Positions 8,951 to 55,815 of a DNA stretch of 64,000 nt are shown piece after piece. Under the pieces are notes generated by a model. That model saw only the letters and a program-made list of their open reading frames with translations. It was not told where the DNA came from and made no database searches. A program made the translations under genes and the position numbers. Source of the DNA: Dermabacteraceae bacterium TAE3-ERU5 (GTDB lineage: Bacteria > Actinomycetota > Actinomycetes > Actinomycetales > Dermabacteraceae); assembly GCA_019218375.1 (NCBI GenBank), contig JAHUUK010000003.1:1-64000 (forward strand), read 5' to 3'. The first letter of the stretch is position 1, and each line of letters starts with the position of its first letter.

Positions 8951-9090
8951 TTTAACGTTTGGGTGCACTTTCCGCAGATAACCCCCACCCCTTAACGTTT
9001 GGGTGCACTAACTGCTGCGAAAACCCCTTTTAACCCCCACAAAGTGCACCTGAACGTAAGGGACAGCAAAAAGTGCACCCAAACGTCACC
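8951..9090 (-). repeat. Composite GTGCAC repeat, copy 1 (reverse orientation)
   Basis: Four copies of the motif ACGTTTGGGTGCACTTT or its complement: two direct on the plus strand near 8954 and 8994, two inverted near 9041 and 9069, arranged around a core with GGTTAAA on the minus strand. The same architecture recurs at 9438, 11581, 13580, 18128, 19183, 37674 and 55666. Confidence 0.9.
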
Positions 9091-9437
9091 CTCCCACCGC
9101 TTTTCCTGGCCGCAATCCACTGGCAGCCAACCCCAAAATAAAAACGCACCCCGCCGTACCTAAGCCCAGGCAAACCCAAACCCACTCAGCCAACTGCCCG
9201 CCCAAAGCCGGGAACGGCACTCACCCAAGGCCCTTCCCCGAAAACCCCTGCCGCCTCACGCCTCAAGCAATTACCAACATCGTGAGCCCGTTACCTCACG
9301 CCCAAATGTCGCCTCCCGCTACTTTTCCTGCCCCACCACATGCCCTATTTCACTCACCCCTGCTGCATCTCCTTGCCCGCCTGTCGTATTCCCTCTGCCC
9401 TCCTGCCTCCCCTCCTGTCCGCATCCCCGGCCCAGGT

Positions 9438-9577
9438 TTTAACGTTTGGGTGCACTTTCCGCAGGTAACCCCCACCCCCTAACGCCTGGGTGCACTAAAC
9501 GCTACGAAAACGCGGTTTAACCCCCACAAAGTGCACCCAAACGTCACGCCCAACCAAAAGTGCACCCAAACGTCACT
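9438..9577 (-). repeat. Composite GTGCAC repeat, copy 2 (reverse orientation)
   Basis: Same four-motif structure and core as copy 1. The core reads GCTACGAAAACGCGGTTTAA on the plus strand. The left flank (CCCGGCCCA.GTTTTAACG) is shared with copy 1 and, inverted, with the right side of copy 4. Confidence 0.9.
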
Positions 9578-9654
9578 GCCAGCGGCACAAAAGTCAGCGG
9601 AAAGAGCCCCCGCCCCTCCCTCCATTTCCCTCAGCCGCTTTCCTGACCCGCCCG

Positions 9655-9775
9655 CTGCTTATCCCGGCCACCCCCTATATCCCCGCTGCACCTCTATCCC
9701 GCCACACACCCCCTATATCCCGTCCAGGCACTCCTCTATCCCGGCTAAACACCACCTCTATCCCGGCCAGATAAA
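9655..9775. repeat. Degenerate ~20-nt tandem repeat (CTCTATCCCGGCCA-like)
   Basis: About six units related to CTCTATCCCGGCCA follow each other every 18-24 nt on the plus strand. No protein frame is convincing across it. Function unknown. Confidence 0.6.
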
Positions 9776-10178
9776 GGTTTAAGAAAGGCCGGGGCTGCGC
9801 CCCCGTTCTTTCCATGCGCACGGCCCCGTCGGCACCAAAACACCGGCGCACCCAGCACCCCGGCCCCCTTCATCTCGCCCCCTTCATCCCGGCACCCAGC
9901 ACCCCGGCGCCTCCGACCCGGCACCCTAGGCTCCCGCCTAAGTCGCTCCGCTCCGCATCTCCCCGCCTCTAACCCCAGCTCCCGGCCCCCTCCGCCCCGG
10001 CCCCGGCCTCTATCCCCAACACCCAGCCCCCAAACACCCAAAACGCACCCTCCAACACCTAGTCCCCATCCGCCCACGCCCCTGCCCCTCCCTTCCCTTC
10101 CCTTGTCCACCAGCTACTTCCCCGCGCACCTATCCACATCTCCCCGGCCCGCAAAAAGAAACCCGGCACGCTGGCCAC

Positions 10179-11174
10179 ATGTCTCGTCCAGTTGCTCAGC
10201 TCCCTCGGCCGCTTGCGAAGGCGGGCGCGTTCCCGGTTTCTTTGGCCCGCGCCCACGGGGTTGGCCGCTACCGGCTGCTCCGGCAGGACGTAATGCGCCT
10301 AGCCAAGGGAATGTATTGCCGCACCGATCCGCCACCCACGGAACTAGAGGTAATCCGGGCGCTGCTTTTCGCGCGTGCCAATACTCGCGATGATCTGGCT
10401 CTTTACCCGGTTTCGCATTTTTCTGCCGCCCGGATTTGGGGGATGCCGCTACCCACCCACAGCGCCAGCTACACCCGGGGGCAACCGGTTGATATGACCT
10501 ACTTTTCGGGGGCGCCTTCTCGCCGAAATACACTGGTCAAATGGCATAAAGCGGTGCGTTACGGGGCCGAGCCAGGGATAACCGAACCCGCTATCTATCG
10601 CGCCGAAACCATCTGCCTAACTTCCCGTTGGCGCACCCTTTTGGATCTGACTCCCCTGCTGCCACCGGATTATCTGGTGATCATCGCCGATCACCTGGTG
10701 CGTCAGCCCCGGCAAAATCTGGAGCAACGCAGCAAGCCCTACGCGGCTCTGTCGGATCTGGAACGCGCGGCGCGAACCTGCCTAAGCATCCGGGCAAAAA
10801 GAAAGTTACTGCGGGCCCTTTCCTTGAGCCGCGTAGGCAGCGATTCTCCGCTGGAAACTCTGCTGCGGCTTCGGCTTGCAGAAGCCGGGCTGCCGGAACC
10901 TAACCTGAACGTGCATATCACCGATGATGACGGTAGACCGCTGCATCAGCCGGACATGTCTTGGCCCCGGTATCGGGTAGCGCTCGAATATGAGGGCCGA
11001 CATCACGGCTTGCCCGAACAGATTAGCCGGGATATTTCCCGTGCTGAAAGGTGCCGCCAGGCAGGCTGGCTTGAGGTGCGGATAGAGAAAAGCATGATGT
11101 ACAACCGGGCCGAGGTCGCCGTGGCAAAGGTTGCCCAGGCGCTACGCGAACGTGGTTGGGAAGAGCAACGCTGA
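10179..11174 (+). CDS. AbiEi/DUF559-like protein with PD-(D/E)XK nuclease-type C-terminus
   Basis: 331 residues. The N-terminus (about 20-50, GRYRLLRQDVMRLAKGMYCR) resembles the winged-helix start of AbiEi-type antitoxin-like proteins. The C-terminus has the pattern of Vsr/DUF559 endonuclease folds: SPLE (223-226), D259 in HQPDMSW, and ALEYEG (268-273) with R/K residues after. Many actinobacteria carry such proteins, with unknown role; DNA cleavage is inferred from the motif only. It stands alone, divergent from the DISARM operon, and both sides are repeat-filled gene-free DNA, which fits an accessory gene. I see no partner toxin next to it. The start ATG at 10179 is the first in frame and lacks a strong ribosome site. 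Confidence 0.7.
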   Translation: MSRPVAQLPRPLAKAGAFPVSLARAHGVGRYRLLRQDVMRLAKGMYCRTDPPPTELEVIRALLFARANTRDDLALYPVSHFSAARIWGMPLPTHSASYTRGQPVDMTYFSGAPSRRNTLVKWHKAVRYGAEPGITEPAIYRAETICLTSRWRTLLDLTPLLPPDYLVIIADHLVRQPRQNLEQRSKPYAALSDLERAARTCLSIRAKRKLLRALSLSRVGSDSPLETLLRLRLAEAGLPEPNLNVHITDDDGRPLHQPDMSWPRYRVALEYEGRHHGLPEQISRDISRAERCRQAGWLEVRIEKSMMYNRAEVAVAKVAQALRERGWEEQR

Positions 11175-11277
11175 GGTTAGGCATGGGTGTTCCTGCGAAG
11201 ATGGGGCGATTTTCCGTTTCCCTGCTGCTGTTTCTTCCCAAAACGGGACGCCTTCCCCTACCCCTCCCTATATCCAG

Positions 11278-11545
11278 CCTCTAGAAACAAGGTGCCATCG
11301 CATAGCCACACTCACGTCGGTCTGGCCCTCTAGACGCTGGCCGCCTGCCGCACCCCTAACGCCCACCCCTGGGCACCGGCCACCTGCCCCTTTAACACCC
11401 AGCCCCTAGAAGTCAGCCGTTTGCCGCACTTCTTCGATGACCACCCTGTAGGGAAACCCTAGAGAAACAAAGGCCCGCCCCTAGAGACAAGGGCCCACCC
11501 CTAGTCGTAATTCCCCGGAGGTCAATCTCTAGAAATGAGGCCCAT
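11278..11545. repeat. Cluster of short CCCTAGARACAAGG-type repeats
   Basis: Units at about 11279, 11403, 11458, 11479, 11499 and 11527 share the core CTAGA(A/G)AC(A)AGG, the best being weakly palindromic (CCCT...AGGG). A matching CCCTAGAAACGAGGG lies at 25135-25149, just upstream of gyrB. Function unknown. Confidence 0.55.
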
Positions 11546-11580
11546 TCCGTGGCCGTGTTCCCCTCTACCTCGCTCCCCTC

Positions 11581-11818
11581 CTTAACATCTGGGTGCACTT
11601 TCGGTTGGCCCTTACGTTCAGGTGCACTTTCGGTGGGTTAAAAGGGGTTTTAGCAGCACTTACTGCACCTAAACGTAAGGAGGTGAGAGTTAACAGCACT
11701 AAGTGCACCTAAACGTAAAGAGGGGGAGGGTTAGCCGCGCTTAATGCACCCAGGCGTAAGGGAGACCAGCCGTAAGGGAGACCAGGAGTTACCACCAAAA
11801 AGTGCACCCAATCGTCAG
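11581..11818 (+). repeat. Composite GTGCAC repeat, copy 3 (forward, enlarged)
   Basis: Two left motifs (about 11587 and 11613), core GGTTAAAAGGGGTTTTAGCA, then four inverted motifs (about 11660, 11699, 11743, 11800) instead of two. It is the longest copy and shows that half-sites can multiply. Confidence 0.85.
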
Positions 11819-12050
11819 GTGCTTAAGCGTCAGGTCGCCCGCAAACTTCAGATCACCCCAAAGCGTCAAGTCACTCACCCAGGCATCAGCAAGTACGCAG
11901 CCGCCGGATTAACCAGCCGCTTAATTAACCAGCCAAACGTCGGCCCATCGCGCAGCCACAGCCCAGCGCCGAAAACCCCATCAGCCCCTGCCCCCGCAGC
12001 TTCAACCCTCGAACCTCACCCCTCGCAACCACCGGGGCGGAACCCGCCGC

Positions 12051-13445
12051 TCACTTTGCGCTCAGGTAGCGATCCAGGCGTTCCAGGGCCTCGGCCACCA
12101 CGTGCTCCGGCGTCGCGATGCTGGCCCGGAACCAGCCTCGGCACCATTCACCGTAGTCGCAGCCGTCGGCCAGCAGGACCCCGGTTTTCTTAGCTAGATC
12201 GTCGGAAAGGCTGCAGGTAGAGATGCCGCTCCCCACAGCGGCGGGAACCTTGTCCGCCGCTAACGGGTCCGGTTCGCTCACGGCCGCCGCATCGGGGCAG
12301 GAAACCAGGCGGCTCGCGTCTACCCAAACCAGGTAGGTGGCGTCGGCCCGCAGCAGTCGCAGCGAATGTTTTTCGCAGAACCTCGCAACCCGGTAACGGT
12401 TTCGCGCCACCAGGGCCAGCATTTCATCGAGCCACACGCCATCCCCGCCCCAGGCGGTGCCGAGCGCGGTCAGCGCCATCAGGTTCGGGTTCGTGAAACC
12501 GGCGCGGCGCATCCCGGCGCTTATCGCTTCGCGCAGCTCAAAATCCGGTATGACCAGCGCGGCGGCCTCCACCCCGGCCAGGTTAAATCCCTTGGCGGGA
12601 GAAAACGCGGTGATGGTTTTCAGAGCAAACGTTTCGGGCGCGGCCGGTTCGGGCACGGGCGTTTCGGTCATGGGCGCGGCCGTTTCGGGGTTTGGCGCGC
12701 CCGTTTCGCCCGCAGGCAAAGTCGTTTCAGGCCCAGGCGCGGCGTCGGCACCGCAAACACCGCCTCCAGCGCTCACTGAGGTAAGCGCCGCCAGCGCAGG
12801 CAGGTGAGTTCCCGCCGGGGCCAGATCGGCATGTACCTCGTCAGAAACCAAAATCGTGCCGTGAGCTGCGCAAAGCTCGAACAGGGGTTGCAACTCTTCG
12901 CGCGACCACACCCGGCCCGTCGGGTTGTGCGGAGTGCAGAGAATGAAAACGTCCACCGGCTCGCGAAACGCCTCGCGCAGTGCGGCGCTATCAATTTCCG
13001 CGCGCGGGCCCGACATATTGAGCGGCACATGATCCACGCGGCAACCGTTCGCCCGCACCACGTTATCGATCGGGCCGTAGGACGGCGAGAAGGTCACGAA
13101 ACGCGCGCCCGGCCTGAGCACCACGTTGCACAGAACCGCCATCGCGTTAATCAGGCGGGGCACGAAAACCACGTGCGACGGATCGACCGGCAAGCCGTGG
13201 CGTCGGCCCAACCAGTTCGCAACCAGGGAGCCGAACGTGGGCGAATAATCCTGGTAACCGTACGCGCCCGCGTCGATCACGCCGCGCAACGCCGCCGTGA
13301 TTTCGGGGGCGGCAGGGAGGTCGGGTTCGGCCGTGGTCAGCGCGATGACGTCATCGCCGTAGAGCGCGCGAGCGGGCGGCCACTTCACGCCGTTTTCGCT
13401 GGTGCACAGTTCGCCGAACACATCTCCCCCTAGCTTTTGGACCAT
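12051..13445 (-). CDS. MalY/PatB-type PLP-dependent C-S lyase (aminotransferase fold)
   Basis: 464 residues, fold type I PLP enzyme. The motif CTPHNPTGRVW and DEVHADL precede SPAKGFNLAG, whose lysine (about 285) should form the Schiff base. MalY/PatB enzymes cleave cystathionine or similar C-S substrates to pyruvate, ammonia and a thiol; the exact substrate is unknown. Two unusual low-complexity insertions are visible: a Pro/Glu/Thr-rich stretch at about 237-281 just before the PLP lysine, and another near 390-415; these explain why it is longer than the usual ~390 residues. ATG at 13445 chosen as first in frame; no good ribosome site is visible. It stands alone between two repeat-rich spacers. 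Confidence 0.8.
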   Translation of the reverse strand: MVQKLGGDVFGELCTSENGVKWPPARALYGDDVIALTTAEPDLPAAPEITAALRGVIDAGAYGYQDYSPTFGSLVANWLGRRHGLPVDPSHVVFVPRLINAMAVLCNVVLRPGARFVTFSPSYGPIDNVVRANGCRVDHVPLNMSGPRAEIDSAALREAFREPVDVFILCTPHNPTGRVWSREELQPLFELCAAHGTILVSDEVHADLAPAGTHLPALAALTSVSAGGGVCGADAAPGPETTLPAGETGAPNPETAAPMTETPVPEPAAPETFALKTITAFSPAKGFNLAGVEAAALVIPDFELREAISAGMRRAGFTNPNLMALTALGTAWGGDGVWLDEMLALVARNRYRVARFCEKHSLRLLRADATYLVWVDASRLVSCPDAAAVSEPDPLAADKVPAAVGSGISTCSLSDDLAKKTGVLLADGCDYGEWCRGWFRASIATPEHVVAEALERLDRYLSAK

Positions 13446-13579
13446 CGGACGGTTAAAGCCTAACGCTTATGCCTTGGGAGATGCTTCAAATATGACTTAA
13501 TGGGTCGCGAAAGCTGGGCGGGCGGCCGGTCACCGCCTCGGCCACTACCCTCACCGCCTGCCGGGATTCACCCTCCTCT

Positions 13580-13769
13580 ATGACGTTTGGGTGCACTTTT
13601 TGCTACCCCTTACGTTCGGGTGCACTTTGTGGGGGTTAAAAGGGGTTTTAGCAGCAGTTAGTGCACCCAGACGTAAGGGGGTGGGAGTTTACCGACCAAA
13701 AGTGCACCCAAACGTTAAAACGTGGGCCGAGGGGAGGTAGAGGGAAGGGTAAAAGTGCACCCAAACGTC
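13580..13769 (+). repeat. Composite GTGCAC repeat, copy 4 (forward, with extra motif)
   Basis: Two direct motifs (13582, 13611), core GGTTAAAAGGGGTTTTAGCA, two inverted motifs (about 13660, 13698) and a fifth inverted motif (about 13752) after a purine-rich spacer. Closest in core sequence to copy 3. Confidence 0.88.
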
Positions 13770-13951
13770 AAGGGGTAGTCGCTCCGGGCCAAAAGCACCC
13801 CGAACGCAGCACCCCAAAAACGCCACCCGCTCAACACCACCGGGCCAAGGGGTGCAGCAGGCAGATGCGAGCCAGCAACACGCCTCCCCCAGTAACACGT
13901 ACCCTCAGCAACACACTCCCCCACGGCCGCCCCCCTTACCGCCCCAAAACT

Positions 13952-13986
13952 AATGGCCGACAGGCAAAACGCACCTGTCGGCCATC
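13952..13986 (-). terminator. Rho-independent-like terminator of the Asp23/sigma operon
   Basis: A 12-bp stem (ATGGCCGACAGG and its complement) with a 10-nt loop. On the minus strand it is followed by TTAGTTTTG, directly after the stop at 14035. Confidence 0.7.
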
Positions 13987-14034
13987 ACTGCGGTCATGCC
14001 GCCCGCTCCCCGGCAGTAAACCAAACAAACTCTC

Positions 14035-14376
14035 TCAGCCCAGCGACTGCACCTTAACCAACACGGTGCGTCCGTCATTCCCCAGGGCCTGCGCCACAGT
14101 GCGCTGGATATCAACGACCGTCTCACGCACGGCGCGCGGCGCAATCTCCAGGCCCACCTCTACGGTCACGGTTTCCTCATCCAAGATCACGCCGTAGCGG
14201 GCCCTATCGCTGGCGCTATCGTCACCGCCGGTGAGTTCCGACGCGGCGCTACGCAGGCGCGCATCCAGGGTGCGCAGGGTGCTGGCGATACCCGGTTCGA
14301 TCCCGGCAACCCCCGGCAGGGCGGTCACCAGTTCCACCAGGGTCGCCGCGTTTACGGCAACGCTCTGTTCACTCAT
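14035..14376 (-). CDS. Small Asp23/Gls24-like protein (last gene of stress operon)
   Basis: 113 residues. The central and C-terminal part (VTVEVGLEIAPRAVRETVVDIQRTVAQAL...VLVKVQSLG) has the alternating strand-helix-strand pattern of the Asp23/Gls24 family, which form peripheral membrane-associated envelope stress proteins. It overlaps the previous gene by 8 nt and is followed by the terminator at 13952-13986, so it ends the operon. The family call rests on pattern and neighbourhood; similarity is weaker than for the two larger Asp23 genes upstream in the operon. Confidence 0.6.
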   Translation of the reverse strand: MSEQSVAVNAATLVELVTALPGVAGIEPGIASTLRTLDARLRSAASELTGGDDSASDRARYGVILDEETVTVEVGLEIAPRAVRETVVDIQRTVAQALGNDGRTVLVKVQSLG

Positions 14377-14866
14377 GCAGATCCTCTATGTGTATATCGA
14401 CCGGGATGTCGTCCAGGCCGAGGTGATCGGCGCAAGCCCGCGCTACGGATGCGCGCACAGCCTCCGCCACACCCGGCAGATCGGGCGTGCCAACCTGCAC
14501 CGTTAAACGACAGCTAACACCCACAGGTGTACCACAAACCAGCAGGTTAGAGGCATTTTCTGCGTAAGTGAAGACGGTGCGCAAGGCGCGTACGCCCGGC
14601 ACCGTGTCGATAGTCTCACGAACCAGGGTGCGCAGGGCTAGCTCAGACACCGTGTAGGGGCCCGCCTCGGTTTCGGGCATCTCTACCTGGCTGCCGCGAC
14701 GCGCATCGGCCTTAACGGATTCCTTGATCGTGGACAGCGCCAGGGTGGAAAGCTGCACGGAACTATCGCCGGCGGCTTCGAGCTCGTCCCATTCCCGGTG
14801 TACGTCCCGGATCAGGTCTAGGTAGCTGCGTTCGGGGTCGTTGTCTTGGATACGGCTCACCTCCAC
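14369..14866 (-). CDS. Asp23/Gls24-related protein downstream of the sigma factor
   Basis: 165 residues, soluble. The segment from about 75 on (TVSELALRTLVRETIDTVPGVRALRTVF...GVSCRLTVQVG...VAEAVRASVARACADHLGL...VDIHIEDL) matches the Asp23-like layout of helix, 'PGV' turn and two strands. The N-terminal 60 residues are acidic and probably helical. GTG start at 14866 overlaps the sigma-factor gene by 10 nt; a second GTG two codons later is an alternative. A position right after an ECF sigma gene would suit an anti-sigma role, but it has no membrane span and no zinc-binding anti-sigma motif, so I keep the Asp23 call. Confidence 0.55.
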   Translation of the reverse strand: MEVSRIQDNDPERSYLDLIRDVHREWDELEAAGDSSVQLSTLALSTIKESVKADARRGSQVEMPETEAGPYTVSELALRTLVRETIDTVPGVRALRTVFTYAENASNLLVCGTPVGVSCRLTVQVGTPDLPGVAEAVRASVARACADHLGLDDIPVDIHIEDLHE

Positions 14867-15450
14867 TCCTCCATTCGCTCCATGATTCTGGTGCGGGCAC
14901 GCGCAATCCGACCGCGCACGGTGGATTCGCTCAGGTTCAGGTTTTGGGCAATCTCTTGATAGCTCATTTCCTCGACTTCTTTAAGCACCCAGCAGGCACG
15001 TAGCTCCGGTTTGAGGGTTGATAGCACCCGCGCCAGGGCACTCATTTTCGCGTTCACTTCGCTGGTGTGTGCGGGATCGGCAGGCGGCACCGCCCGGCCC
15101 GGATCGTTCGTGTCTGGGCCGACGTCGAGCGCCTCCAGCGTTTCTCCCGGCTGCGCGCTCGTGGCCCGCCGCGCCTGTCGGCGCACCGCGTCCGTGGCCC
15201 GATGGGTGCAGATTTTGCGCAGCCAGCCGCGAAACGCGTCCGGGTTCTCCAGCAGGTGGATCCGCTTCCAGGCCAGAATGAACGTCTCTTGGACAACGTC
15301 TTCCGTGTCTTGCCTGTTGCCCAAAATCATGTAGGCGGTGCGGAAGAGCCGGGCCTGGTAGATATCTACCAGTTGCCCGAACGCTTCCGCATCGCCATCT
15401 TGCGACCGCAGTACTAGGTGGCGATCACGCGCACCGTTTTCGCTGCTCAT
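14857..15450 (-). CDS. ECF (RpoE-like) sigma-70 factor
   Basis: 197 residues with both ECF domains. Region 2 runs about 20-88 (FGQLVDIYQARLFRTAYMIL, then QDTEDVVQETFILAWKRI) and region 4 about 135-190 (MSYQEIAQNLNLSESTVRGRIARARTRI, a clear helix-turn-helix). The linker is Pro/Asp/Gly-rich. It starts with ATG at 15450, overlapping the preceding AmaP-like gene by 4 nt (ATGA), so it is made from the operon transcript. It probably directs transcription of this operon or other envelope-stress genes; the target promoter cannot be told from the window. Confidence 0.88.
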   Translation of the reverse strand: MSSENGARDRHLVLRSQDGDAEAFGQLVDIYQARLFRTAYMILGNRQDTEDVVQETFILAWKRIHLLENPDAFRGWLRKICTHRATDAVRRQARRATSAQPGETLEALDVGPDTNDPGRAVPPADPAHTSEVNAKMSALARVLSTLKPELRACWVLKEVEEMSYQEIAQNLNLSESTVRGRIARARTRIMERMEEWR

Positions 15451-16088
15451 GCCGGGGATGATACCCGGGTTTCGCTGCCGCCAAGCACCGCTTCGCTGTT
15501 GTTTCCGCGAGCGCGGGAGCTGCGCAGGGTGACCAGGGCGTCAATCTGTCGCGGCTCCACGCCGAGGGTCTGGCGAACATCGTCGGCCAGCATGCGCCGC
15601 GCGGCATCAACGGACCAGCCGGTTTCGGCGTCCTCAGCCACGTCAAGCTGCGCCTGCAGCCAGGGCTGCTTCGCGGTGCCGCTCACCTCTACCGAGGCGC
15701 CGACGATACCGGAAACCTGCTCCTCTACGTGTTCCGCGAGGGCCAGGCCCAGCACGTCCGGCTGAAAGGTGCCGAGCAGGGCACCGTCGGCATCGCTAAT
15801 GCGCAGGGTCGAGGTGCGCGGCTTCTTCGGGGCCTGGCCGATAACCAGGTAGAGGCCGAAAAGAACCGCGACCAGGCAGACCGCACCAGCGGCCGCCGGG
15901 AGCCACTGCGCGTGCATTTCCAGCAGCATCGCAGGGGTGGTTTCGCCGTGCGCCAGGTACCGATCAAAATCGGGCAGCTGCTTCGTGTAGCCGAACGCGG
16001 CCACACCCAGCCAGGCCGCCGCCGCCAGGGATAACACCCCGGCTAAAGCCAGCACAAACCTATTTTTGGTGCCGGAGATGGAACGCAT
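15447..16088 (-). CDS. AmaP-like alkaline-shock membrane anchor protein
   Basis: 213 residues with two membrane segments near the N-terminus (about 11-33 and 63-84) and a basic loop after the second, then a cytoplasmic domain (about 95-195) containing an Asp23-like helix-strand pattern (LADDVRQTLGVEPRQIDALVTL). AmaP in Firmicutes tethers Asp23 to the membrane; the same job is inferred from topology and from lying among four Asp23-type genes. ATG at 16088 with CAGATGCG context; no other start fits. Confidence 0.65.
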   Translation of the reverse strand: MRSISGTKNRFVLALAGVLSLAAAAWLGVAAFGYTKQLPDFDRYLAHGETTPAMLLEMHAQWLPAAAGAVCLVAVLFGLYLVIGQAPKKPRTSTLRISDADGALLGTFQPDVLGLALAEHVEEQVSGIVGASVEVSGTAKQPWLQAQLDVAEDAETGWSVDAARRMLADDVRQTLGVEPRQIDALVTLRSSRARGNNSEAVLGGSETRVSSPA

Positions 16089-16118
16089 CTGCGCCTCCTT
16101 CAGTAATTTGCTGCCTGA

Positions 16119-16667
16119 TTAGCTGATCTGTTTCACGGTGACACGGCTGGCCAGTTCGCTGGCCGGTCGCAGTTCCCGCAGGGCCTCCGTGACGGCCTCT
16201 TCGGCCGCGCGGCGTACCTGCTCGGGTTCGTCCACCACCGTCGCCACGCGTACGTCGGCACGCTGGGAGCCGACGCGCACGTCGGCGCTATACACGCCGT
16301 CCACGCGCAGCACGCGCATCTTCAGGCGGCGCGCTACGTCGCTGCGGGCGATGGCGGTTTCACCGGGAACGTCGCTACCGAAAGCGCCCATGCGGGACGG
16401 CTGGCCCGGCCAAAGTGCGCAGATCAGCAGCACCAGGCCGATCAGGGCCAGCACTACCGCGGTGGTCTGGAAGGCGGTCGAATCGAAACGCAGACCGGCG
16501 GCCTGTTCCAGGGAGGCGGAGATGTCGGGCGGCAGCTGCGCACCGGCATAGTGACTGCCCACAACCCAGCAGCCGAAGCCACCAAGGGCGATTAGGGCGA
16601 TGCTGAGGATAGTCGCGGGGACTGTGCGGGTGGGCCGCCTGGTAAGACGGCGGGGTGTGTTACTCAA
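16119..16667 (-). CDS. DUF6286-type membrane protein of Asp23 operon
   Basis: 182 residues: basic N-terminus, two membrane segments (about 20-41 and 68-86) and a C-terminal soluble domain (about 100-180) with VLRVDGVYSADVRVGSQRADVRVATVVDEPEQVR, typical of the DUF6286 proteins found beside Asp23 in actinobacteria. The start is a TTG at 16667, embedded in TTGA so that it overlaps the stop of the upstream gene. Function unknown; probably part of the same membrane-bound complex. Confidence 0.65.
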   Translation of the reverse strand: MSNTPRRLTRRPTRTVPATILSIALIALGGFGCWVVGSHYAGAQLPPDISASLEQAAGLRFDSTAFQTTAVVLALIGLVLLICALWPGQPSRMGAFGSDVPGETAIARSDVARRLKMRVLRVDGVYSADVRVGSQRADVRVATVVDEPEQVRRAAEEAVTEALRELRPASELASRVTVKQIS

Positions 16668-17032: not shown

Positions 17033-17034
17033 GA

Positions 17035-17316: not shown

Positions 17317-17324
17317 CGTTTAAA

Positions 17325-17843: not shown

Positions 17844-18624
17844 GTTTACTCCTTCTTGTCTGACTGCCCGGAAAGTCGGGCGGTACTTCACCGGCGCTTG
17901 GCCGGCTGTTCCATGCGGACACAAGTAAGACGTGGCGTGCTCGGGAATCCTCACGCAAAAGTTTGGTGAGCTGGGTCACTGCTTTTTTCGTATGGGTTTC
18001 AGGGGGCGCACGACCCCGCGCCGGTGTCTGTTTCTCATCCCTCCCCGCCACCGGCTTATCCATCGCCTCCTCCTGCTCATCTTCTTTCCCGTGCCGCTCC
18101 CTTCCCCCACCGTCTCTCTGCCGCGGTGACGTTTGGGTGCACTTTTGGCTGCCCCTTACGTTCAGGTGCACTTTGTGGTGGTTAAACCGCGTTTTCGTAG
18201 CGTTTAGTGCACCCAAACGTACGGTGTCTGGGTTACCTGCAGAAAGTGCACCCAAGCGTTACCCAGGTGCGATCGGGTGAGCTTCTGCCGAGTCTGCAGA
18301 TGATGCGGCCAGGGAAACCCCCGGGTAGGAAAAGCCCAGGAAGGAAAGGGCGAACCGACGGCACGGGGGTGTAGGTGTGGGGAGGGAACGGGTGACAAGA
18401 GGGTATGAACGTGGACGAGTGAACAGGGAGCAAGAAGGCGTGAGCGTGGAGCGAGCGCGCTGCGAGGGGCATGGGCGGGCGCGGTCGTGCGAGATTTGGC
18501 CGCGTTCACGCATGCGGCCGACTGTGGCACGTGGCGCCGTCGACCAAAAACCGGCTGTTTTAGCGGCGGAAACCGGAACGTCGGCACAAAAAAATCACCC
18601 CGCATAACGAGGTGATTTCTATTG
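17844..18624. other. Upstream region of Asp23 operon with composite repeat
   Basis: About 780 bp. The part next to 17843 should hold the operon promoter, which I cannot point to. A pyrimidine tract (18040-18120) leads into composite repeat copy 5. From 18265 to 18624 I see no gene or clear motif. Confidence 0.6.
18128..18264 (+). repeat. Composite GTGCAC repeat, copy 5 (forward)
   Basis: Two direct motifs (18129, 18158), core GGTTAAACCGCGTTTTCGTA and two inverted motifs (about 18207, 18244). With its left flank (from 18103) it is almost identical to the reverse complement of copy 6 over some 110 nt. Confidence 0.92.
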
Positions 18625-19182: not shown

Positions 19183-19319
19183 TAACACCTGGGTGCACTT
19201 TCTGCTGGTACCCCCGACGCCGTTACGTTTGGGTGCGCTAAACGCTACGAAAACGCGGTTTAACCCCCACAAAGTGCACCTGAACGTAAGGGGCAGCCAA
19301 AAGTGCACCCAAACGTCAC
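19183..19319 (-). repeat. Composite GTGCAC repeat, copy 6 (reverse)
   Basis: Near-exact inverted copy of copy 5. Together they flank the tRNA-Ala, DLW-39 and tRNA-Ile genes with arms of at least 110 nt extending to 19345. Confidence 0.92.
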
Positions 19320-19342
19320 CGCGGCAGAGAGACGGCGGGGGG

Positions 19343-19399
19343 AAGGGAGAGGGGGACGGTGAAGGGAGAGGGGGACGGTGAAGGGAGAGGGGGACGGTG
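19343..19399. repeat. Three exact copies of a 19-bp unit
   Basis: The unit AAGGGAGAGGGGGACGGTG occurs three times head to tail, then decays into similar purine-rich sequence to about 19445. Confidence 0.95.
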
Positions 19400-19530
19400 A
19401 AAGAAGAGGGGTGGAGGGAGAGGGGTGGGAGGAAGAGAGGGACAAAAGGAATAGAGCGGACGGAGAGAGACGAGAAGACCCCGGGAGGAAGAGGCAGCAC
19501 GCGGGACAGGCATCACGTGCTGAAAAAGAG

Positions 19531-36197: not shown

Positions 36198-37478
36198 GTT
36201 TCACATGAAACTAGATCCGCTGCGGAGGCCTGCGCAGGCTAAAAGTGATGCTTTTGTTGCGAGAGCCTGAGGCTAGTCCTCTTAAAAACCAAATTTTCAT
36301 GTGGGGCACTCCTCTGCTTATAGCTAAGGCCGTGAGTTACAGATGGAAGATCCTCTAGTTATCCACTGATTACACACAGATGTGGAATTAACTGTTTCAC
36401 GGGAAACATACAAGAAAGCGAGCGAGCGGTACGAATAGGCATCTAGCACTTAGCGGATGATCGGGTGCGATGTCGCTACGTTGCTGCGTCCAAGTTGGAC
36501 GTGTAATTAGGTGCGGTTTCACGTGGAACAGCTCCAGTGGGAGCAAAAAGTTTGGCGCCGCAGGAAAGAATTCAGCAAAAAATCCTGTTTCACGTGAAAC
36601 TTAGGAGAGAGGAGGATGGCGGTGGTTTGCCCATATTTTGCTAGGTGCGTAAATTGCGGAAAACAATCGCAGACTATGCACACTAGACGATCCTATTCCC
36701 GGTGTTTCACGTGAAACCTCAGCCGCGATGTTTTGGGATTTCTAGATGCATGCCGTTTCACGTAAAACTAGGTCTATCGCTTGACGACGATCAATGGGTG
36801 TTACGAGCACCCAAGTTTCACGTGAAACCGAGGGTTCACCACCATAACGATTAGGCATGGTTACCAGCGCACGTGTTTCACGTGAAACGCACGAATCTCT
36901 GCTTTTTAGCGTTTTCGGATTAGCAACGCTTACGCACACCCATGAATCTATGAAAACAACCCAGGCATAGCCCTGCATGAGTGTGCGGGAGGGTCAGAAA
37001 AGGGCCGCTATTCCTAGGTGACTGGTGACTAGGTTTCACGTGAAACAGGAGAAACGATAGTCAGGCGTAAGTACTTGTGTTTTACGTTTTAACGGGTTCA
37101 CGTGAAACCAAAAGTTTCCTGCGATTCCGCGGCCGTCACTCCCTTTATGTTTCACATGAAACCTTCTTCGAGCATTGCTGGTTATTGCAAGAAAGCACCT
37201 CTGTTTCACGTGAAACGGAGCCACTAGGTGTCGCGTACCGATGGGATTCAGTATGCCGGTAAGACACCAGCCCCTACCCCTCCTTTTAGGGACGAAATTA
37301 TTGGCTACTCATCCTCATGGGGGTCTAGGCGACTGGGTAGCCATGTCGACTGGGCAGCCGTAGGCAACGGGAAACCGCAGGTATGGGTGAGCGAATCGGT
37401 GGCTAAAACCGGAACGCGTTTCGTGTGGGAGGCGCCATTTTGTATCCGTGAATAGGGCTGCAATGTTTCATGTGAAAC
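36198..37478. promoter_or_regulatory. Array of thirteen parS-like centromere sites
   Basis: Six exact copies of GTTTCACGTGAAAC at 36587, 36704, 36815, 36875, 37033 and 37203. One- or two-base variants lie at 36198, 36394, 36516, 36755, 37095, 37149 and 37465. The sequence equals the conserved parS core bound by ParB. Sites are 50-220 bp apart, all between parB and trxB. Confidence 0.93.
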
Positions 37479-37673: not shown

Positions 37674-37741
37674 GTGCGTTTAGGTGCACTTTCGGTGGGT
37701 TAAAGCAGGTTTTCATAGCAGCAAGTGCACCCAAACGTTAT
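37674..37741 (+). repeat. Composite GTGCAC repeat, copy 7 (short form)
   Basis: Only the inner half: one direct motif (GTTTAGGTGCACTTT), a core with GGTTAAAGCAGGTTTTCATA and one inverted motif AAGTGCACCCAAACGTTA. The outer motifs are missing. Confidence 0.85.
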
Positions 37742-47569: not shown

Positions 47570-47692
47570 TTGTGCGCCGCGACACATTTGCTTTGTGGGG
47601 CGTGTGACGCTTACTGACGTTAATTCACCCCTTGCGCGCGCCTTGCCCATACTTGGGGTGTCAGTAATTTCCCGGAAACAGGAGACTCTCAC

Positions 47693-50140: not shown

Positions 50141-50300
50141 AAGGACGGTTAGCTCGCATCCGCTTCCACCGTCGCGGTGGGGCGGGTAGACTTTGACGGT
50201 CCATGCACTTTCGGCACCCGTCGGAAGTAATTGGATGGCATGACCCTCCTGCCACGGAAGGACCGTGGCCGCGTTAGACCACAGGAGGTGGGTGAAACGC

Positions 50301-50588
50301 ATGCGTAAGTACGAAATGGTCGTGATCCTCGACTCGGATGTCGATGAGCGCACTGTGCAGGGCTCCTTCGAGAAGCTCGTGCAGGTGGTTCCCGCCGAAG
50401 GCGGCACCATTGACAACATCGATATCTGGGGCAAGCGCAAGTTTGCTTACGAGATCAACAAGAAGTCCGAGGGCATCTACGTGATCCTCAACTTCACCGC
50501 GGAATCGAAGACCGCTCAGGAGCTGGATCGTCAGCTGGGCCTGAACGAGACGGTTGTACGCACCAAGCTGATGCGGGTCGAGGCCTGA
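50301..50588 (+). CDS. rpsF: 30S ribosomal protein bS6
   Basis: 95 residues from the ATG at 50301 (MRKYEMVVILDSDVDE) with GGAGGTG upstream; the frame is open from 50265 without a ribosome site. The central WGKRKFAYEINKKSEGIYV is standard. First gene of the rpsF-ssb-rpsR-rplI operon. Confidence 0.97.
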   Translation: MRKYEMVVILDSDVDERTVQGSFEKLVQVVPAEGGTIDNIDIWGKRKFAYEINKKSEGIYVILNFTAESKTAQELDRQLGLNETVVRTKLMRVEA

Positions 50589-50641
50589 TTCGCACCCCCA
50601 AGCTCTAGTAACACCCCGCAAGATACGTCCAAGGAGGATCC

Positions 50642-51205
50642 ATGGCAGGCGAAACCGTCATCACCGTGGTTGGAAACCTGACCGCTGACCCGGAGCTGCG
50701 CTTCACCCAGTCGGGTGCCGCCGTAGCGTCGTTTACCGTGGCTTCTACCCCGCGTACCTTCGATCGCCAGTCGGGCGAGTGGAAAGACGGCGAAGCCCTC
50801 TTCCTGCGCTGCTCGGTATGGCGCGATGCTGCCGAAAACGTTGCGGAATCCCTCGAAAAGGGCAACCGCGTGATCGTGCAGGGTCGGCTGCGCCAGCGTT
50901 CCTACACGGACCGCGAAGGCAACAACCGCACCTCGCTCGAGCTCGACGTAGACGAGGTCGCACCCTCGCTGCGTTACGCAACCGCTAAGCCGCAGCGCGT
51001 ACAGCGCGGTGGCGGCGGATTCGGTGGCAACAACGGTGGCGGCAACTTTGCCGCGGGCGGCGGAAACTTCGGTGGCGGGCAAAACGCCGCCGGTGGTTTC
51101 GGCGGCGCACCGCAGCAGGGTGGCTTCCAGAGCCAGGGCAATACCGAGGACCCCTGGAAGGGGATGTCCTCGGGTGGTGGCTACGACGAACCCGCCCCGT
51201 TCTAA
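50642..51205 (+). CDS. ssb: Single-stranded DNA-binding protein
   Basis: 187 residues. OB-fold at about 1-110 ([37 protein letters not shown]), a Gly/Asn-rich linker and the acidic tip DEPAPF that recruits partner proteins. Strong ribosome site AAGGAGG seven bases before the ATG. Confidence 0.97.
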
Positions 51206-51342
51206 CGGGCAGGTGGCGGCCCGGCCGCTGCCATTGCGAGATCATCGCAGCTACAAAAATCTTTCATTTCAGGTCTCGCCGTTAAGCGAGATTCCATCCC
51301 GGGTCACCGCCCGGGCTCCCAGATGCTAAAAGGAGCACCACG

Positions 51343-51579
51343 ATGGCAAAGCCAGTTCTTCGCAAGCCGAAGAAGAAGCAGAACCCTCTCAAGACCGCCG
51401 GTGTTGAGGCTGTCGATTACAAGGACGCCGCTCTGCTGCGTAAGTTCATCTCGGACCGCGGCAAGATCCGCGCGCGCCGCGTAACCGGCGTGTCCGTGCA
51501 GGAGCAGCGCAAGATCGCAAAGGCTGTTAAGAACGCCCGCGAGATCGCCCTGCTGCCGTACTCGTCCTCCGGCCGCTGA
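51343..51579 (+). CDS. rpsR: 30S ribosomal protein bS18
   Basis: 78 residues: a basic N-terminus with KPKKKQNP, then [50 protein letters not shown]-type sequence of bS18. AAAAGGAGCACC precedes the ATG. No CXXC zinc ligands are seen, so it is the zinc-independent form. Confidence 0.95.
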
Positions 51580-51603
51580 GCCTAACCCCGAGGGAGAAGA
51601 ACT

Positions 51604-52059
51604 ATGTCTACGAAACTGATCCTCACCCACGAGGTGTCCGGCCTCGGCGCCGCTGGCGACGTTGTGGAAGTTAAGGACGGCTACGCCCGTAACTTCCTGC
51701 TGCCCCGCAACCTGGCCACCCCGTGGACCAAGGGTGCTGAGCGCCAGCTCAACCAGATCCGTGCGGCACGCAGCAAGCGCGCCATCGAGAGCCTGGAAGA
51801 GGCGCAGGCCATGCGCGACCTGCTGCAGAGCAAGCCGGTCGTCGTGTCCGAGCGTTCGGGCGAGAACGGCCGCCTGTTCGGCGCCGTTACCCAGGCCGAC
51901 GTGGCCGCCGCTGTTGAGACTGCTTTTGACAAGCAGATCGACAAGCGCAAGGTTGAGTTCCCGACCCCGATCAAGTCGCTCGGCTCGCACACCGCGACCG
52001 TGCGTCTGCACGACGAGGTTTACGCGAACCTGACCGTTCAGGTCACCGCTGCTAAGTGA
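51604..52059 (+). CDS. rplI: 50S ribosomal protein bL9
   Basis: 151 residues, typical length. N-domain with [18 protein letters not shown] and C-domain ending in [14 protein letters not shown]. Last gene of the operon; a terminator follows at 52081. Confidence 0.97.
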
Positions 52060-52080
52060 TTTAGCAAAGCCTTTTAACAA

Positions 52081-52118
52081 CGAACCCCGTGTCATATGAC
52101 ACGGGGTTCGTTGCTTTT
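52081..52118 (+). terminator. Terminator after rplI (perfect 30-nt palindrome)
   Basis: A perfect 15-bp inverted repeat without unpaired centre (52081-52110), followed by TTGCTTTT. It stops the ribosomal operon before the permease gene. Confidence 0.92.
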
Positions 52119-52187
52119 CCATAACGAAATGATGAACTATTAAGCAGAAATGGCGGATAGGGACTTTTCCGCCGTAATGTACCGGTC

Positions 52188-53576
52188 ATGTCAACCGTAA
52201 AATCCAACGAACTAAAACGCTCTCTGGGCCACGGCCAGATGGCGATGATTGCCATGGGATCGGCTCTTGGTACGGGCCTGTTCCTCGGTTCCGGAGCCGC
52301 CATCGGTGTGGCTGGCCCCGCAGTAATCCTCGCCTTCGCGTTCGGCTCCCTGATCGCAGCGTGTATCGCCGCCTGCATGGGGGAAATGGCTTCCCGCTAT
52401 CCCGTGCGCGGTGGCTTCGGCACCCTCGCTTCCGCCTTTATCGGCCCGTTCTGGGGCTACCTGGCGCGCTGGTGCTACTGGTTCGTTACCGTCGCCGTAA
52501 CCGGCGTGGAACTGGTCGCGGTCGCTAAGTACCTGCAGTACTGGGTTCCCGGCCTCGATCTGTCGGTAAGCATTCTGGGATTCGCGGCCCTTATTTTTGC
52601 GCTGAACATCTTCAGCGTAAAGAGCTTCGGCGCGGTCGAATTCTTCCTTTCCTCCATTAAGGTAATCGCCGTATTCGCGTTCATTATCGTGGGTGCGCTG
52701 CTGGTATTTGTCGGCCTGCCCGGAACTCCCGCGGTGGGAGTAGCGAACCTGACCAACGACGGCGGCTTCGTGCCGAACGGCTTCAAGGCTGTTTGGCTGA
52801 GCATGTCCATCGTGATCTTCTCCTTCGGCGGTATCGAGCTGATCAGCATTTCCGCCGCCGAGGCGAAGGATCCGGGGCGCAGCGTCAAGACGGCGGCACG
52901 CTCCACCATGGTGCGCCTGGCGTTCTTCTACGTGGCGGCCATCGCGATCATCGTCTGCCTCGTGCCCTGGCAGCAGGCTGCGCAGGTGGATGGCGTAGAG
53001 GCCAGCCCGTTCGTGCTGGCGTTCAACCAGGCGGGCATTCCGGCGGCTGCCAGCGTCATGAACTTCATCGTGCTCGTGGCCGCGCTGAGCGCCGCCAACG
53101 CCAACCTTTACGCCGGCGGGCGCATGATGCATTCGCTGTCGGCCGATAGGTTCGCGCCGCAGGCGTTCGGCAAGACCTCCTCCGCGGGCGTTCCCGTGGC
53201 GGGCCTGGTCGCCTCCTGCGTCGGCATCATCGCCGCGGCATCGCTGGCCTACTTCGAGGTGAAGGACCTGTTCGGCATTATGATGTCGGTAGTGGTGTTC
53301 TCCGTGATGGTGGTGTGGCTACTGATCCTGACTAGCTACCTGTTCTACGCCAAGCACCGCGACGGTAAGGCGCCGTTCAAGGTGCCGGGCGGGCGCTTCG
53401 TGGCCGGTTTCGGTATCTTCGGCGTGCTTTCCATCCTGGCCACGGCCGTGGAGATGGATGGCATCTGGACCGCCATGAAGATGGGCGTTCCGTTCATCCT
53501 GCTGCTCGCGGTGTTCTACTACGCCGTGGTGCGCAAGAACGTGCAGCCGATTGGCGATCTGGACGCGATCAGCTGA
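52188..53576 (+). CDS. APC-family amino acid permease
   Basis: 462 residues with about twelve membrane spans. The start is typical of the AAT branch: LKRSLGHGQMAMIAMGSALGTGLFLGSG, then GEMASRYPVRGGFGTLA. It should import an amino acid with protons; the substrate cannot be told. It stands alone between two terminators. ATG at 52188; the ribosome site is weak (GTACCGGTC), which may mean leader-poor translation. Confidence 0.9.
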   Translation: MSTVKSNELKRSLGHGQMAMIAMGSALGTGLFLGSGAAIGVAGPAVILAFAFGSLIAACIAACMGEMASRYPVRGGFGTLASAFIGPFWGYLARWCYWFVTVAVTGVELVAVAKYLQYWVPGLDLSVSILGFAALIFALNIFSVKSFGAVEFFLSSIKVIAVFAFIIVGALLVFVGLPGTPAVGVANLTNDGGFVPNGFKAVWLSMSIVIFSFGGIELISISAAEAKDPGRSVKTAARSTMVRLAFFYVAAIAIIVCLVPWQQAAQVDGVEASPFVLAFNQAGIPAAASVMNFIVLVAALSAANANLYAGGRMMHSLSADRFAPQAFGKTSSAGVPVAGLVASCVGIIAAASLAYFEVKDLFGIMMSVVVFSVMVVWLLILTSYLFYAKHRDGKAPFKVPGGRFVAGFGIFGVLSILATAVEMDGIWTAMKMGVPFILLLAVFYYAVVRKNVQPIGDLDAIS

Positions 53577-53588
53577 TTAGGCGTGCGA

Positions 53589-53620
53589 GGGCGGGAGGCT
53601 GGTTAGCCTCCCGCCCTTTT
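53589..53620 (+). terminator. Terminator after the permease gene
   Basis: A perfect 12-bp stem (GGGCGGGAGGCT) with a GGTT loop, followed by TTTTCTTT. Confidence 0.93.
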
Positions 53621-53640
53621 CTTTGCCCAAAATCGTCATA

Positions 53641-53703
53641 TTGCTTGATGGTGCACTGGATCACTCCTATGGTGATAGATGCAAGCCCTCGCATATGCGA
53701 GGG
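53641..53703 (+). promoter_or_regulatory. Candidate promoter and operators before the dehydrogenase gene
   Basis: A perfect 18-nt palindrome CCCTCGCATATGCGAGGG lies at 53686-53703, with a second inverted repeat ATCAC-N7-GTGAT at 53660-53676. A possible -35 TTGCTT at 53641 and -10 TCCTAT at 53665 would place the palindrome just after the transcription start, as in repression by a dimeric regulator. Confidence 0.5.
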
Positions 53704-53731
53704 GTGCCACCCACTCAAGGAGGAGAGCGTT

Positions 53732-54805
53732 ATGCGCGCTGCCCGGTACTACGACAATCGCGACATCCGTATCGAAGAGGTAGAGGCTCCTGAGCCCGGA
53801 CCGGGGCAGGTTCTGGTGGAGGTTGCCTGGTGCGGCATCTGCGGCACCGATCTGCATGAATATCTTGATGGGCCTATCTTCATTCCCCCGGCGGGGCACC
53901 CCCACCCCGTGAGCGGTGAGGAAGCGCCCCTGACCATGGGGCACGAAATGTCCGGCACCGTCGCCGCGCTCGGTGAGGGCGTGACCGACATCGAGGTGGG
54001 GCAGCCGGTGGTGGTTGAGCCGTACATCATCGACGAAAAGTTCTCCACCGAACCGGAGGACAACTACCACCTCAGCGAAAACATGAACTTCATCGGCCTC
54101 GGCGGTGGCGGTGGCGGCCTTGGCGAAAAGATCGCCGTGGATCGCCGCTGGGTGCATCCCATCAGCGAGAAGATTCCGCTCGATCAGGCGGCCCTGATTG
54201 AGCCGCTCGCCGTCGGTCACCACGCCTTCGTGCGTTCCGGCGCAAAGGCCGGGGACGTCGCCCTGGTGGGCGGCGCAGGCCCCATCGGGCTGTTGCTTTC
54301 GGCGGTACTCAAGGCGGAGGGGCTCAGGGTTATCGTTTCCGAGCTTTCCTCCCTGCGCCGCGAGAAGGCGATGGAATCGGGCGTGGCCGACCACGCGATC
54401 GATCCGCGCGAAAAGGACGTGGCCGAGGCCGTGCGCGAACTTACCGACGGTAAGGGGGCCGACGTCGCCTTCGAATGCACCTCGGTGGACGTCGTGCTTA
54501 ACACCCTGCTGGACGCGGTGCGCCCCGGTGCGGTGGTAGTAAACGTGTCCATCTGGGGCCACCAGCCGAAGATCGACATGCACAAGCTCGTGCTCAAGGA
54601 GATCGACCTGCGCGGCACCATCGCCTACTGCGGCGACCACCCCGCCACCATCAAGCTGGTCGAGGAGGGAAAGGTAAACCTGGAGCCCTTCATCACGGGC
54701 AAGATCGGGCTCGATGACCTGATCGATGAAGGGTTCGATACCCTGATCAACCGCAACGAAACGGCGGTTAAGATCCTGGTTTCGCCCTCCGGCAAGGGGC
54801 TCTAA
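53732..54805 (+). CDS. Zinc-dependent 2,3-butanediol dehydrogenase-like (MDR family)
   Basis: 357 residues from the ATG at 53732 (AAGGAGGAGA upstream). Catalytic zinc motif GICGTDLHEYLDGP with GHEMSGTVAALGEGV, a long insertion typical of butanediol dehydrogenases (PHPVSGEEAPLTMGHE), and the Rossmann motif GGAGPIGLL. It should interconvert acetoin and (R,R)-2,3-butanediol with NAD(H), though related sorbitol or alcohol dehydrogenases cannot be excluded. The four Cys of a structural zinc site are not evident. Stands alone behind a palindromic operator. Confidence 0.85.
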   Translation: MRAARYYDNRDIRIEEVEAPEPGPGQVLVEVAWCGICGTDLHEYLDGPIFIPPAGHPHPVSGEEAPLTMGHEMSGTVAALGEGVTDIEVGQPVVVEPYIIDEKFSTEPEDNYHLSENMNFIGLGGGGGGLGEKIAVDRRWVHPISEKIPLDQAALIEPLAVGHHAFVRSGAKAGDVALVGGAGPIGLLLSAVLKAEGLRVIVSELSSLRREKAMESGVADHAIDPREKDVAEAVRELTDGKGADVAFECTSVDVVLNTLLDAVRPGAVVVNVSIWGHQPKIDMHKLVLKEIDLRGTIAYCGDHPATIKLVEEGKVNLEPFITGKIGLDDLIDEGFDTLINRNETAVKILVSPSGKGL

Positions 54806-55246
54806 AGGGGGCGCTGCGGGAGCAGATAACTGAATACGTGCGCGGGGCGGGTTGCCGGTTAGGTGGTCCGCCCCGTCCGCATGCGGCGGCTGGCGGCCCG
54901 GTTTGTTCCCGGTAGGCCTGGTAAGTCTGGTAGGCCCGGTGAGCCTGGTGAAAGGTTGCCCGCCCGCCCCACAAAAGGGGGACGGGGCGGACGGGCTTTG
55001 AGGGGGAACGTCTTAGTTGGTCTGCGCGGCACAGGAAACCGGCTGAGACACAAGCGCTCCGCCTTCAGATTACGGCGAGGGTAGGGGGCCGACCAGGGAA
55101 ACGCTCTGATTGATATCGGACCGATACATTTACCGGCTTGTGTCTTACGTCTCTACCCGCGCCCTGGATTGTGTGTTTGTGCTGCGGGGAGGTAATATTT
55201 TTCTTGCCTCGTTGTCAGACTGATAACAGCTGGTGGTGGGGTAATT
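54806..55246. other. Gene-free spacer with 9-nt tandem repeat and inverted arms
   Basis: 440 bp. Four 9-nt units (GGTAGGCCT-like) run at 54911-54946, framed by the inverted 11-mers CCGCCCCGTCC (54868) and GGACGGGGCGG (54980). In one frame the unit reads as Gly-x-y, but the frame has no ribosome site. The rest up to tRNA-Leu shows nothing clear. Confidence 0.6.
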
Positions 55247-55330
55247 GCGCGAGTGGCGGAATTGGTAGACGCGCACGGTTCAGGTCCGTGTGTCCTAACA
55301 GACGTGGGGGTTCGAGTCCCCCCTCGCGCA
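55247..55330 (+). tRNA. tRNA-Leu(CAG)
   Basis: 84 nt, class II tRNA with a long variable arm (TGTCCTAACAGACG region). Acceptor stem GCGCGAG/CTCGCGC, anticodon loop TTCAGGT (CAG), T-loop GTTCGAGTC. CCA is not encoded. Confidence 0.97.
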
Positions 55331-55336
55331 CAGCGA

Positions 55337-55373
55337 GAAAACCCCGTGAACGGCTTAGCCGGGCACGGGGTTT
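55337..55373 (+). terminator. Terminator after tRNA-Leu
   Basis: An 8-9 bp stem (ACCCCGTG/CACGGGGT) with an inner GGCT/AGCC pair, followed by TTCTTTAT. Confidence 0.85.
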
Positions 55374-55665
55374 CTTTATGCCTAAAAGTTGGTGCTGGGC
55401 AAAGCTGGCACTGGGCAAAGTTAGCAGTGGGCGCGAGTAGGCGCTTTTGAGCGGGAACCGCGCTAGGAACGGGACGATTACGACGGCGGCGCAGGCGGCG
55501 GCGCGAATTCGGGCTTTTGGCTTTGTGTAAAGACGGCGATTCGTGGCCGTGGTTTAGGCGGCCGTAGTTTAGAAGGCGTTTTAGCGGGTGGGGTAGAAGG
55601 GGCCTTTTCATGGGCGTTTCACTGCTGGTTTGGCCGGGCGTGCGCAGCCCTGCATGTCTGGGTGC

Positions 55666-55815
55666 GCGTTTGAGTGCACGTTTGGGTGCACTTTTAGTTG
55701 CCCCTTACGTCTGGGTGCACTTTTGGTGGGTTAAACCCCGTTTTCGCAGCGTTTAGTGCACCCAAACGTTAAGGGGTGGGGATTATCTGCGCTAAGTGCA
55801 CCCAAACGTTATCCC
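55666..55815 (+). repeat. Composite GTGCAC repeat, copy 8 (forward)
   Basis: Direct motifs near 55666 (degenerate), 55679 and 55708, core GGTTAAACCCCGTTTTCGCA and inverted motifs near 55755 and 55795. It ends with GTTATCCCC. Confidence 0.9.

Follow-up and report, generated by a model that had tools for sequence, protein, structure and literature searches.

What function, if any, should be attributed to a composite inverted repeat that recurs eight times within a single stretch of DNA? The question is raised by the first 64,000 nucleotides of contig JAHUUK010000003.1 (assembly GCA_019218375.1) of Dermabacteraceae bacterium TAE3-ERU5, a stretch referred to below as the window. A sequence-only reading of the window had described eight copies of a unit based on the hexamer GTGCAC and had proposed three possible roles: non-autonomous mobile DNA of the REP (repetitive extragenic palindromic) or MITE (miniature inverted-repeat transposable element) kind, a binding array for a dimeric protein, or a structured RNA. 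We conclude that these composite intergenic repeats form a new family, restricted to the genus, with the conservation pattern of a protein-binding array. Among the proposed roles the binding array appears to fit best, in view of site conservation, spacing, constraint in place and the lack of covariation, although its signal would not be GTGCAC alone.

Four-site arrays maintained in place

We compared the genome of TAE3-ERU5 (G000, 1.92 Mb) with that of a congener, Dermabacteraceae bacterium TAE3-ERU27 (G001). A full unit consists, as originally described, of two direct sites, a core and two inverted sites (site-site-core-site-site, the sites facing inward), but its length is 135-137 nt (usually 136 bp) rather than ~140 nt. 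The single site is asymmetric and covers 17-24 bp (ACGTTTGGGTGCACTTT...). In the usual full unit the first GTGCAC centre is separated by 29 bp from that of the same-direction site, which is followed at 41 bp by an inverted site and at a further 40 bp by the second inverted site. The core, GGTTAAA-N5-TTTT-N3-AGC, sits inside the 41-bp middle. Over 69 full copies, each position in the GGTGCACT/AGTGCACC heart of all four sites is 86-100% constant, whereas outer site positions and spacers are more variable. Within the core, GGTTAAA (90-100%) and TTTT (94-100%) are similarly constant and ~5 G/C-rich bases between them vary, so that the two alternative cores named earlier turned out to be points within a range.

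The geometry is nearly as constant as the sites. The distance between the innermost sites is 41 bp in 84 of the 86 loci of both genomes. Exactly two sites on either side of the core are present in 48 of the 86 loci, and 43 of these plain four-site loci are spaced exactly 29-41-40 or 29-41-39. Additional sites occur further out, frequently at ~40-43 bp, and in some loci outer units have been lost. The short and long outer spacings are swapped relative to the better-scoring strand in three loci (G000 C7:27400, G000 C7:55383 and G001 C23:55546), the latter two being orthologues; these loci score nearly equally on both strands. Judged by the swapped spacings, the core or inner half is apparently inverted relative to the outer arms in these three loci, and inspection by eye suggested the same for G000 C6:96794 and G001 C12:459919. 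A protein complex that contacts several sites would require such a combination of conserved sites and near-invariant spacing.

The sites are strongly concentrated in the arrays. In the window, GGGTGCACTTT with at most one mismatch occurs 24 times (shuffled sequences: mean 1.46, maximum 5). Throughout G000, the 12-mer TGGGTGCACTTT is found 97 times at the same tolerance versus once for the reversed control; no more than 60 nt separate each of the 59 exact occurrences, and 32 of the 38 one-mismatch occurrences, from an array. Across 455 kb of G000, GGTGCACTTT on either strand has a single occurrence outside the arrays as bounded by a hidden Markov model (HMM), and even this one (window 13752) is the extra outer site of the array at 13581. 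The hexamer outside arrays is close to expectation (112 observed versus 101 expected, 62 versus 66 and 23 versus 27, the 455 kb being among the scopes), and therefore GTGCAC by itself is not the signal. The idea that GTGCAC is a restriction or methylation site was rejected, as the hexamer is not avoided outside arrays.

Following a suggestion of the sequence-only reading, we aligned seven window copies, built both a covariance model (R1) and an HMM on that alignment, and counted the repeat in the genome and its relatives. All eight window copies proved real (they lie no more than a few bases from the places first given and far exceed what shuffled sequences yield), yet they are only the window's share. 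In the stretches examined with the HMM there were 50 clusters in G000 and 41 in G001, which merged into 46 and 40 loci, respectively. Since two G000 contig ends (C2:7671 and C11:388) both match one G001 array locus, one locus may have been split or duplicated at an assembly break. A search of the family with R1, using stricter filters and scoring at most 70 candidates per genome, matched two of 47 genomes, both of this genus (G000 and G001), and did not find arrays in the other 45. The exact core pattern was present in one of 297 genomes drawn from the order, TAE3-ERU5 itself, and in none of the 296 others, among which G001 was not drawn. In a collection of 84,980 species the core pattern matched 16 stretches, 15 from TAE3-ERU27 and one from an Anaerolineaceae metagenome-assembled genome, the latter taken as a chance match. 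A stricter core pattern had no match in this collection, where records very near the window's genome are possibly excluded. Viral contigs lacked the core pattern, and one array copy compared with plasmids and phages produced no match. Among sister genera, no comparable dispersed 12-mer family was found in 120 kb (contig starts) each of G010, G005 and G004; in G004, G/C-rich 12-mers were seen in up to 8 bins. The titles and abstract openings of the literature searched contained no description of this repeat. In the collections searched, the family is restricted to the genus.

Between the two species the arrays are retained at the same places: for 36 of the 46 G000 loci, G001 also has an array at the orthologous place. 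We aligned 33 orthologous pairs and counted substitutions in the 26 that were complete in both genomes with 60-nt flanks. Sites differed at 108 of 1768 positions (6.1%), the core at 73 of 754 (9.7%), spacers at 161 of 988 (16.3%) and flanks at 817 of 2728 (29.9%), the flank figure being a rough yardstick because it includes coding DNA and forced alignment. The difference between sites and spacers is highly significant (p=4e-17). The 16 pairs that are at least 91% identical keep the order (sites 4.0%, core 5.8%, spacers 9.7%, flanks 23.4%). As sites diverge less than core, spacers and flanks, the arrays are maintained in place.

The arrays lie between genes in both orientations, in agreement with the original description. 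Among 89 placed clusters (of 91), none overlaps a predicted gene by >40 nt, and predicted intergenic DNA makes up 18% of the loci examined. Genes for the neighbourhood comparisons came from a simple open reading frame predictor; two of the 50 G000 clusters, having no neighbour on one side, were excluded, and clusters of one locus were counted separately. The arrays are also unevenly distributed along the chromosome. The replication origin (oriC) is marked in the window by parA, parB, gidB, a YidC-like gene and, read by eye, DnaA boxes and a parS-like cluster at 36.2-37.5 kb. In G000, 16 of the 46 loci fall in 96.7 kb around oriC versus 2.3 expected. In G001, where chance would place 2.4 loci within 60 kb of oriC and 5.8 in the first 292 kb of contig C12, the counts are 10 (of 40) and zero, respectively.

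A putative binding role and its rivals

We read the repeats, tentatively and with a little less than even confidence, as DNA-level binding arrays for a putative sequence-specific protein. Each array would offer four sites, two on each side of the core, at 29-41-40 bp to a complex of fixed geometry, with the protein binding the sites and oligomerising across the array. Some 45 intergenic arrays, denser around oriC, could then organise or mark the chromosome in a nucleoid-, segregation- or division-related manner. We infer such binding, oligomerisation and a chromosomal role, the last most likely by likeness to Noc-binding sites (NBS), SlmA-binding sites (SBS) or parS sites. A more specific version, held more loosely, is that ~45 oriC-rich four-site arrays form a genus-specific chromosomal address system, with a putative nucleoid-organising or -marking protein, that may have evolved within one Dermabacteraceae lineage. 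If the arrays are protein sites, one lineage has gained a new genome-wide DNA-binding system not found in sister genera, and the birth of such a system is open to study. If they are only a repeat family, it is an unusually rigid and constrained one and offers a ready typing marker for the genus.

A number of observations weigh against a binding role. Near-sites do occur alone, since six one-mismatch TGGGTGCACTTT 12-mers in G000 lie away from arrays. Single arrays are dispensable, because 10 of the 46 G000 loci are without a counterpart in the congener, where the half copy at oriC also looks decayed. The oriC windows were picked after seeing the data, and local duplication feeds the oriC cluster, which becomes 12 of ~41 loci when neighbours are collapsed; the terminus is only guessed, as GC skew is weak. 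A full array has been copied recently (G000 C8, 9002 and 9695; 99.3% over 146 nt), as would fit a spreading repeat too. Finally, some of the constraint could be mimicked by gene conversion among the copies. Nevertheless, purifying selection on the arrays seems the better reading, because the order of divergence is unchanged in the 16 pairs with a spacer divergence of only 9.7%.

The main rival holds that these are old non-autonomous intergenic repeats (ERIC-, BOX- or MITE-like) without a cellular role, which dispersed in an ancestor of the genus and are uniform because of common descent together with occasional copying or conversion among themselves. We regard this as possible, though on the doubtful side. 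It would account for the intergenic location in both orientations, the genus restriction, the recent copy, the gain and loss of units and the variable shared flanks between copies, and the copy number resembles that of some such families (PMC10969869, PMC3049150). Terminal inverted repeats of ~17-19 nt are present in the form of the inverted outer sites. However, most loci (36 of 46) are common to both species, and yet their sites are 4-6% diverged versus 23-30% in the flanks, with the same order in the 16 pairs with spacers at 9.7%, for which conversion by a different copy is improbable.

Neither genome contains a match to Y1, rve, Transposase_mut (IS256-type) or DDE_Tnp_1 (IS4-type) transposases, IS110, ISL3, IS630 and others not having been searched. 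For rve, four relatives within the family gave 6, 1, 8 and 19 matches; in the relatives searched, Y1 and DDE_Tnp_1 likewise had no match. The search for RAYT/Y1 transposases (PF01797) was negative in six of six genomes, G000 and G001 included, with positive controls in 5 of 14. Target-site duplications are not evident: of 37 full G000 copies, five have a flanking match of at least 5 nt versus 2.0 in shuffles, and the mean longest match is 1.92 versus 1.46 (sd 0.28). The sole candidate for an empty site turned out to be a replaced gap and not a clean one. The match between the two C8 copies stops after 146 nt; since stretches shared between copies overrun the unit by differing amounts, no fixed end is seen. 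Thus, the arrays are not evidently mobile now, although some copying still happens. The proposal of a mobile MITE is not supported, given the lack of a transposase of the families searched and of a clear target-site duplication; an old dispersal of that kind may have occurred. The REP proposal fails in the strict sense, with no Y1 transposase, no GTAG head seen and no compensatory changes.

According to a further, improbable explanation, the arrays are recombination (attachment) sites that accept gene cassettes in an integron- or pdif-like manner. The case for it comes from G001 C1:315217-316492, where a glycosyltransferase gene of 47% GC lies between a site-site-core-site and a site-core-site-site stretch. 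G000 has one intact array at this place, and the G001 arrangement resembles an array interrupted by an inserted gene, the inner half being duplicated. In addition, genes for Fic, HipA with its neighbour, an NgoMIV-type system and a second glycosyltransferase occur in one genome only at places of arrays or of missing arrays. However, array parts on both sides were seen only in the first of these cases. Two tyrosine recombinases, of Xer-like size, are encoded in G000 and three in G001, and no intact serine recombinase or resolvase was found, the sole G000 match being broken by stops and G001 having none. When 455 kb of G000 were set against G001 (event list entered by hand), insertions or deletions of at least 500 nt affected 4 of 21 array gaps and 11 of 72 other intergenic gaps of at least 150 nt (p=0.74). 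Because large events are not enriched at array gaps, the cassette idea was rejected as the main reading and kept as a minor one.

Very unlikely, in our estimate, is a structured RNA or a bidirectional 3'-end or terminator element that works through a hairpin. The strong nested hairpins originally proposed are indeed predicted (z -4.1 to -10.7 for six full copies, -2.0 for the half copy), but the pairing is not conserved. Within a copy, stem partners resemble each other no more than in shuffles, whether m2-m2' (p=0.88 for 37 G000 copies, 0.81 for 32 G001 copies) or m1-m1' (p=0.53 and 0.60). Arm covariation is absent from both genomes whether or not G-U pairs are counted, and none of 48 predicted pairs in the seven-copy alignment shows a kept double change. 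The two right-hand sites, which tend to agree (p=0.014 in G000, 0.051 in G001), are direct repeats and not stem partners; in G000, m1 and m2' agree rather less than in shuffles (p=0.998). It is the sites, not the pairing, that are conserved, and the hairpin reading was rejected on the lack of arm covariation. A terminator function would fit four terminator-like matches on array cores followed by TTTT in the stretch scanned (two overlapping at 18174-18191, others at 19254-19271 and 9511-9528). However, by eye, the core hairpin is lost where the variable bases fail to pair with the upstream Gs. Convergent gaps hold 37 of 89 clusters (20 of 48 in G000) versus 4 of 46 other gaps of at least 150 nt, an excess on which we do not rely because it is not significant against a fuller background (7 of 21 versus 11 of 72, p=0.11). 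Among tandem genes the core shows no strand preference (13 same and 10 opposite in G000, 12 and 8 in G001). At gathering score, Rfam covariance models matched three tRNAs in the window and none of the arrays.

Copies and neighbouring genes in the window

Seven of the eight window copies are full units, as first described, while the copy reported at 37674 comprises the inner half only, and those reported at 11581 and 13580 carry extra outer sites. The arrays at 8953-9088 and 9440-9575, both on the minus strand, correspond to a single array in the congener; the former has the highest score listed for any copy in either genome (159.2 bits). Two plus-strand arrays follow at 11583-11718 (orthologue G001 C1:138715), with two extra right-hand sites ~41 and ~58 bp further out (11719-11817, plus strand), and at 13581-13717 (orthologue G001 C1:140434), with one extra right-hand site at 13741-13770 (plus strand). 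The array at 18127-18261 (plus strand) adjoins two tRNA genes, and the congener's gap holds a glycosyltransferase gene instead of an array. Between the tRNA genes and gyrA lies the array at 19183-19318 (minus strand), which has an orthologue in the congener. These two arrays are near-copies (92% over 178 nt) in opposite orientation. The half array (site-core-site) at 37675-37740 (plus strand) adjoins oriC and the parS cluster; in the congener, only a decayed trace could be read by eye. The last array, at 55676-55811 (plus strand), has degenerate extra sites directly to its left.

Several neighbouring features were noted in passing. A 19-nt purine-rich tandem repeat at 19339-19425 adjoins the array at 19183. 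The oriC intergenic region (36199-37476), beside parA and parB, contains DnaA boxes and about ten parS-like sites, counted by eye (GTTTCACGTGAAAC and variants). A plus-strand gene at 10242-11174, amid the window's densest cluster of arrays, encodes (in DNA aligning at 85% with the congener) a protein with weak REase_MTES_1575 likeness (23.9 bits versus a Pfam cut-off of 38.2). The minus strand of positions 1-8633 carries DISARM-like defence genes, namely a type IIG/DrmMI-like methylase of 1711 aa (584-5719), a DrmD-like SNF2 helicase (5706-8633) and an SNF2-type fragment at the window edge. Identity to the congener, ~92-93% on average, reaches ~99% in the last 3 kb of this stretch and 98% in contig C8:1-8934; as the stretch is unusually identical and lies between arrays, its recent exchange is possible. 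Elsewhere in G000, an NgoMIV-type restriction enzyme and a C5-methylase of 47% GC adjoin an array (L016:2981-4834, C7) and are absent from the congener's gap, and a HipA-like gene with a probable helix-turn-helix partner, recognized by eye, lies beside an array in G000 only (L053:571-2357, C10).

Comparison with known systems

The arrays belong to none of the named families tested. The comparisons with ERIC, BOX and NBS/SBS that follow are made by description. The arrays share with REPs and bacterial interspersed mosaic elements (BIMEs) an intergenic position and a composite build of inverted repeats. Gyrase and IHF are among the proteins bound by BIMEs, and palindromy is reported to be preserved in REPs of Stenotrophomonas BIMEs (PMC2817692). 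Unlike these, the present family has ~45 copies, no RAYT/Y1 transposase, no GTAG head seen and no compensatory changes, so that assignment to REP/BIME fails two defining features; a MITE origin is unproven. ERIC elements are likewise intergenic and have an inverted-repeat form with a length of ~127 bp. They are reported to number 30 in E. coli K-12 and up to 711 in Photorhabdus, and are known from Enterobacteriaceae and Vibrionaceae, not from actinobacteria (PMC10969869). The arrays would further differ from ERIC in that selection appears to act on sites and spacing. Pneumococcal BOX is, like the arrays, a composite repeat, in which internal modules vary in number (PMC3049150), although modules and host are different, and here 48 of the 86 loci have exactly two sites on each side.

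The likeness to NBS and SBS lies in the number and placement of sites. NBS (~70) and SBS (24-52) are dispersed and under-represented in the terminus region (PMC4726725); the present family likewise comprises tens of dispersed sequence-specific sites, in 40-46 oriC-enriched loci. In contrast to NBS and SBS, which are palindromic sites (14 bp for NBS; PMC4726725), these loci are four-site arrays with near-fixed spacing and a conserved core.

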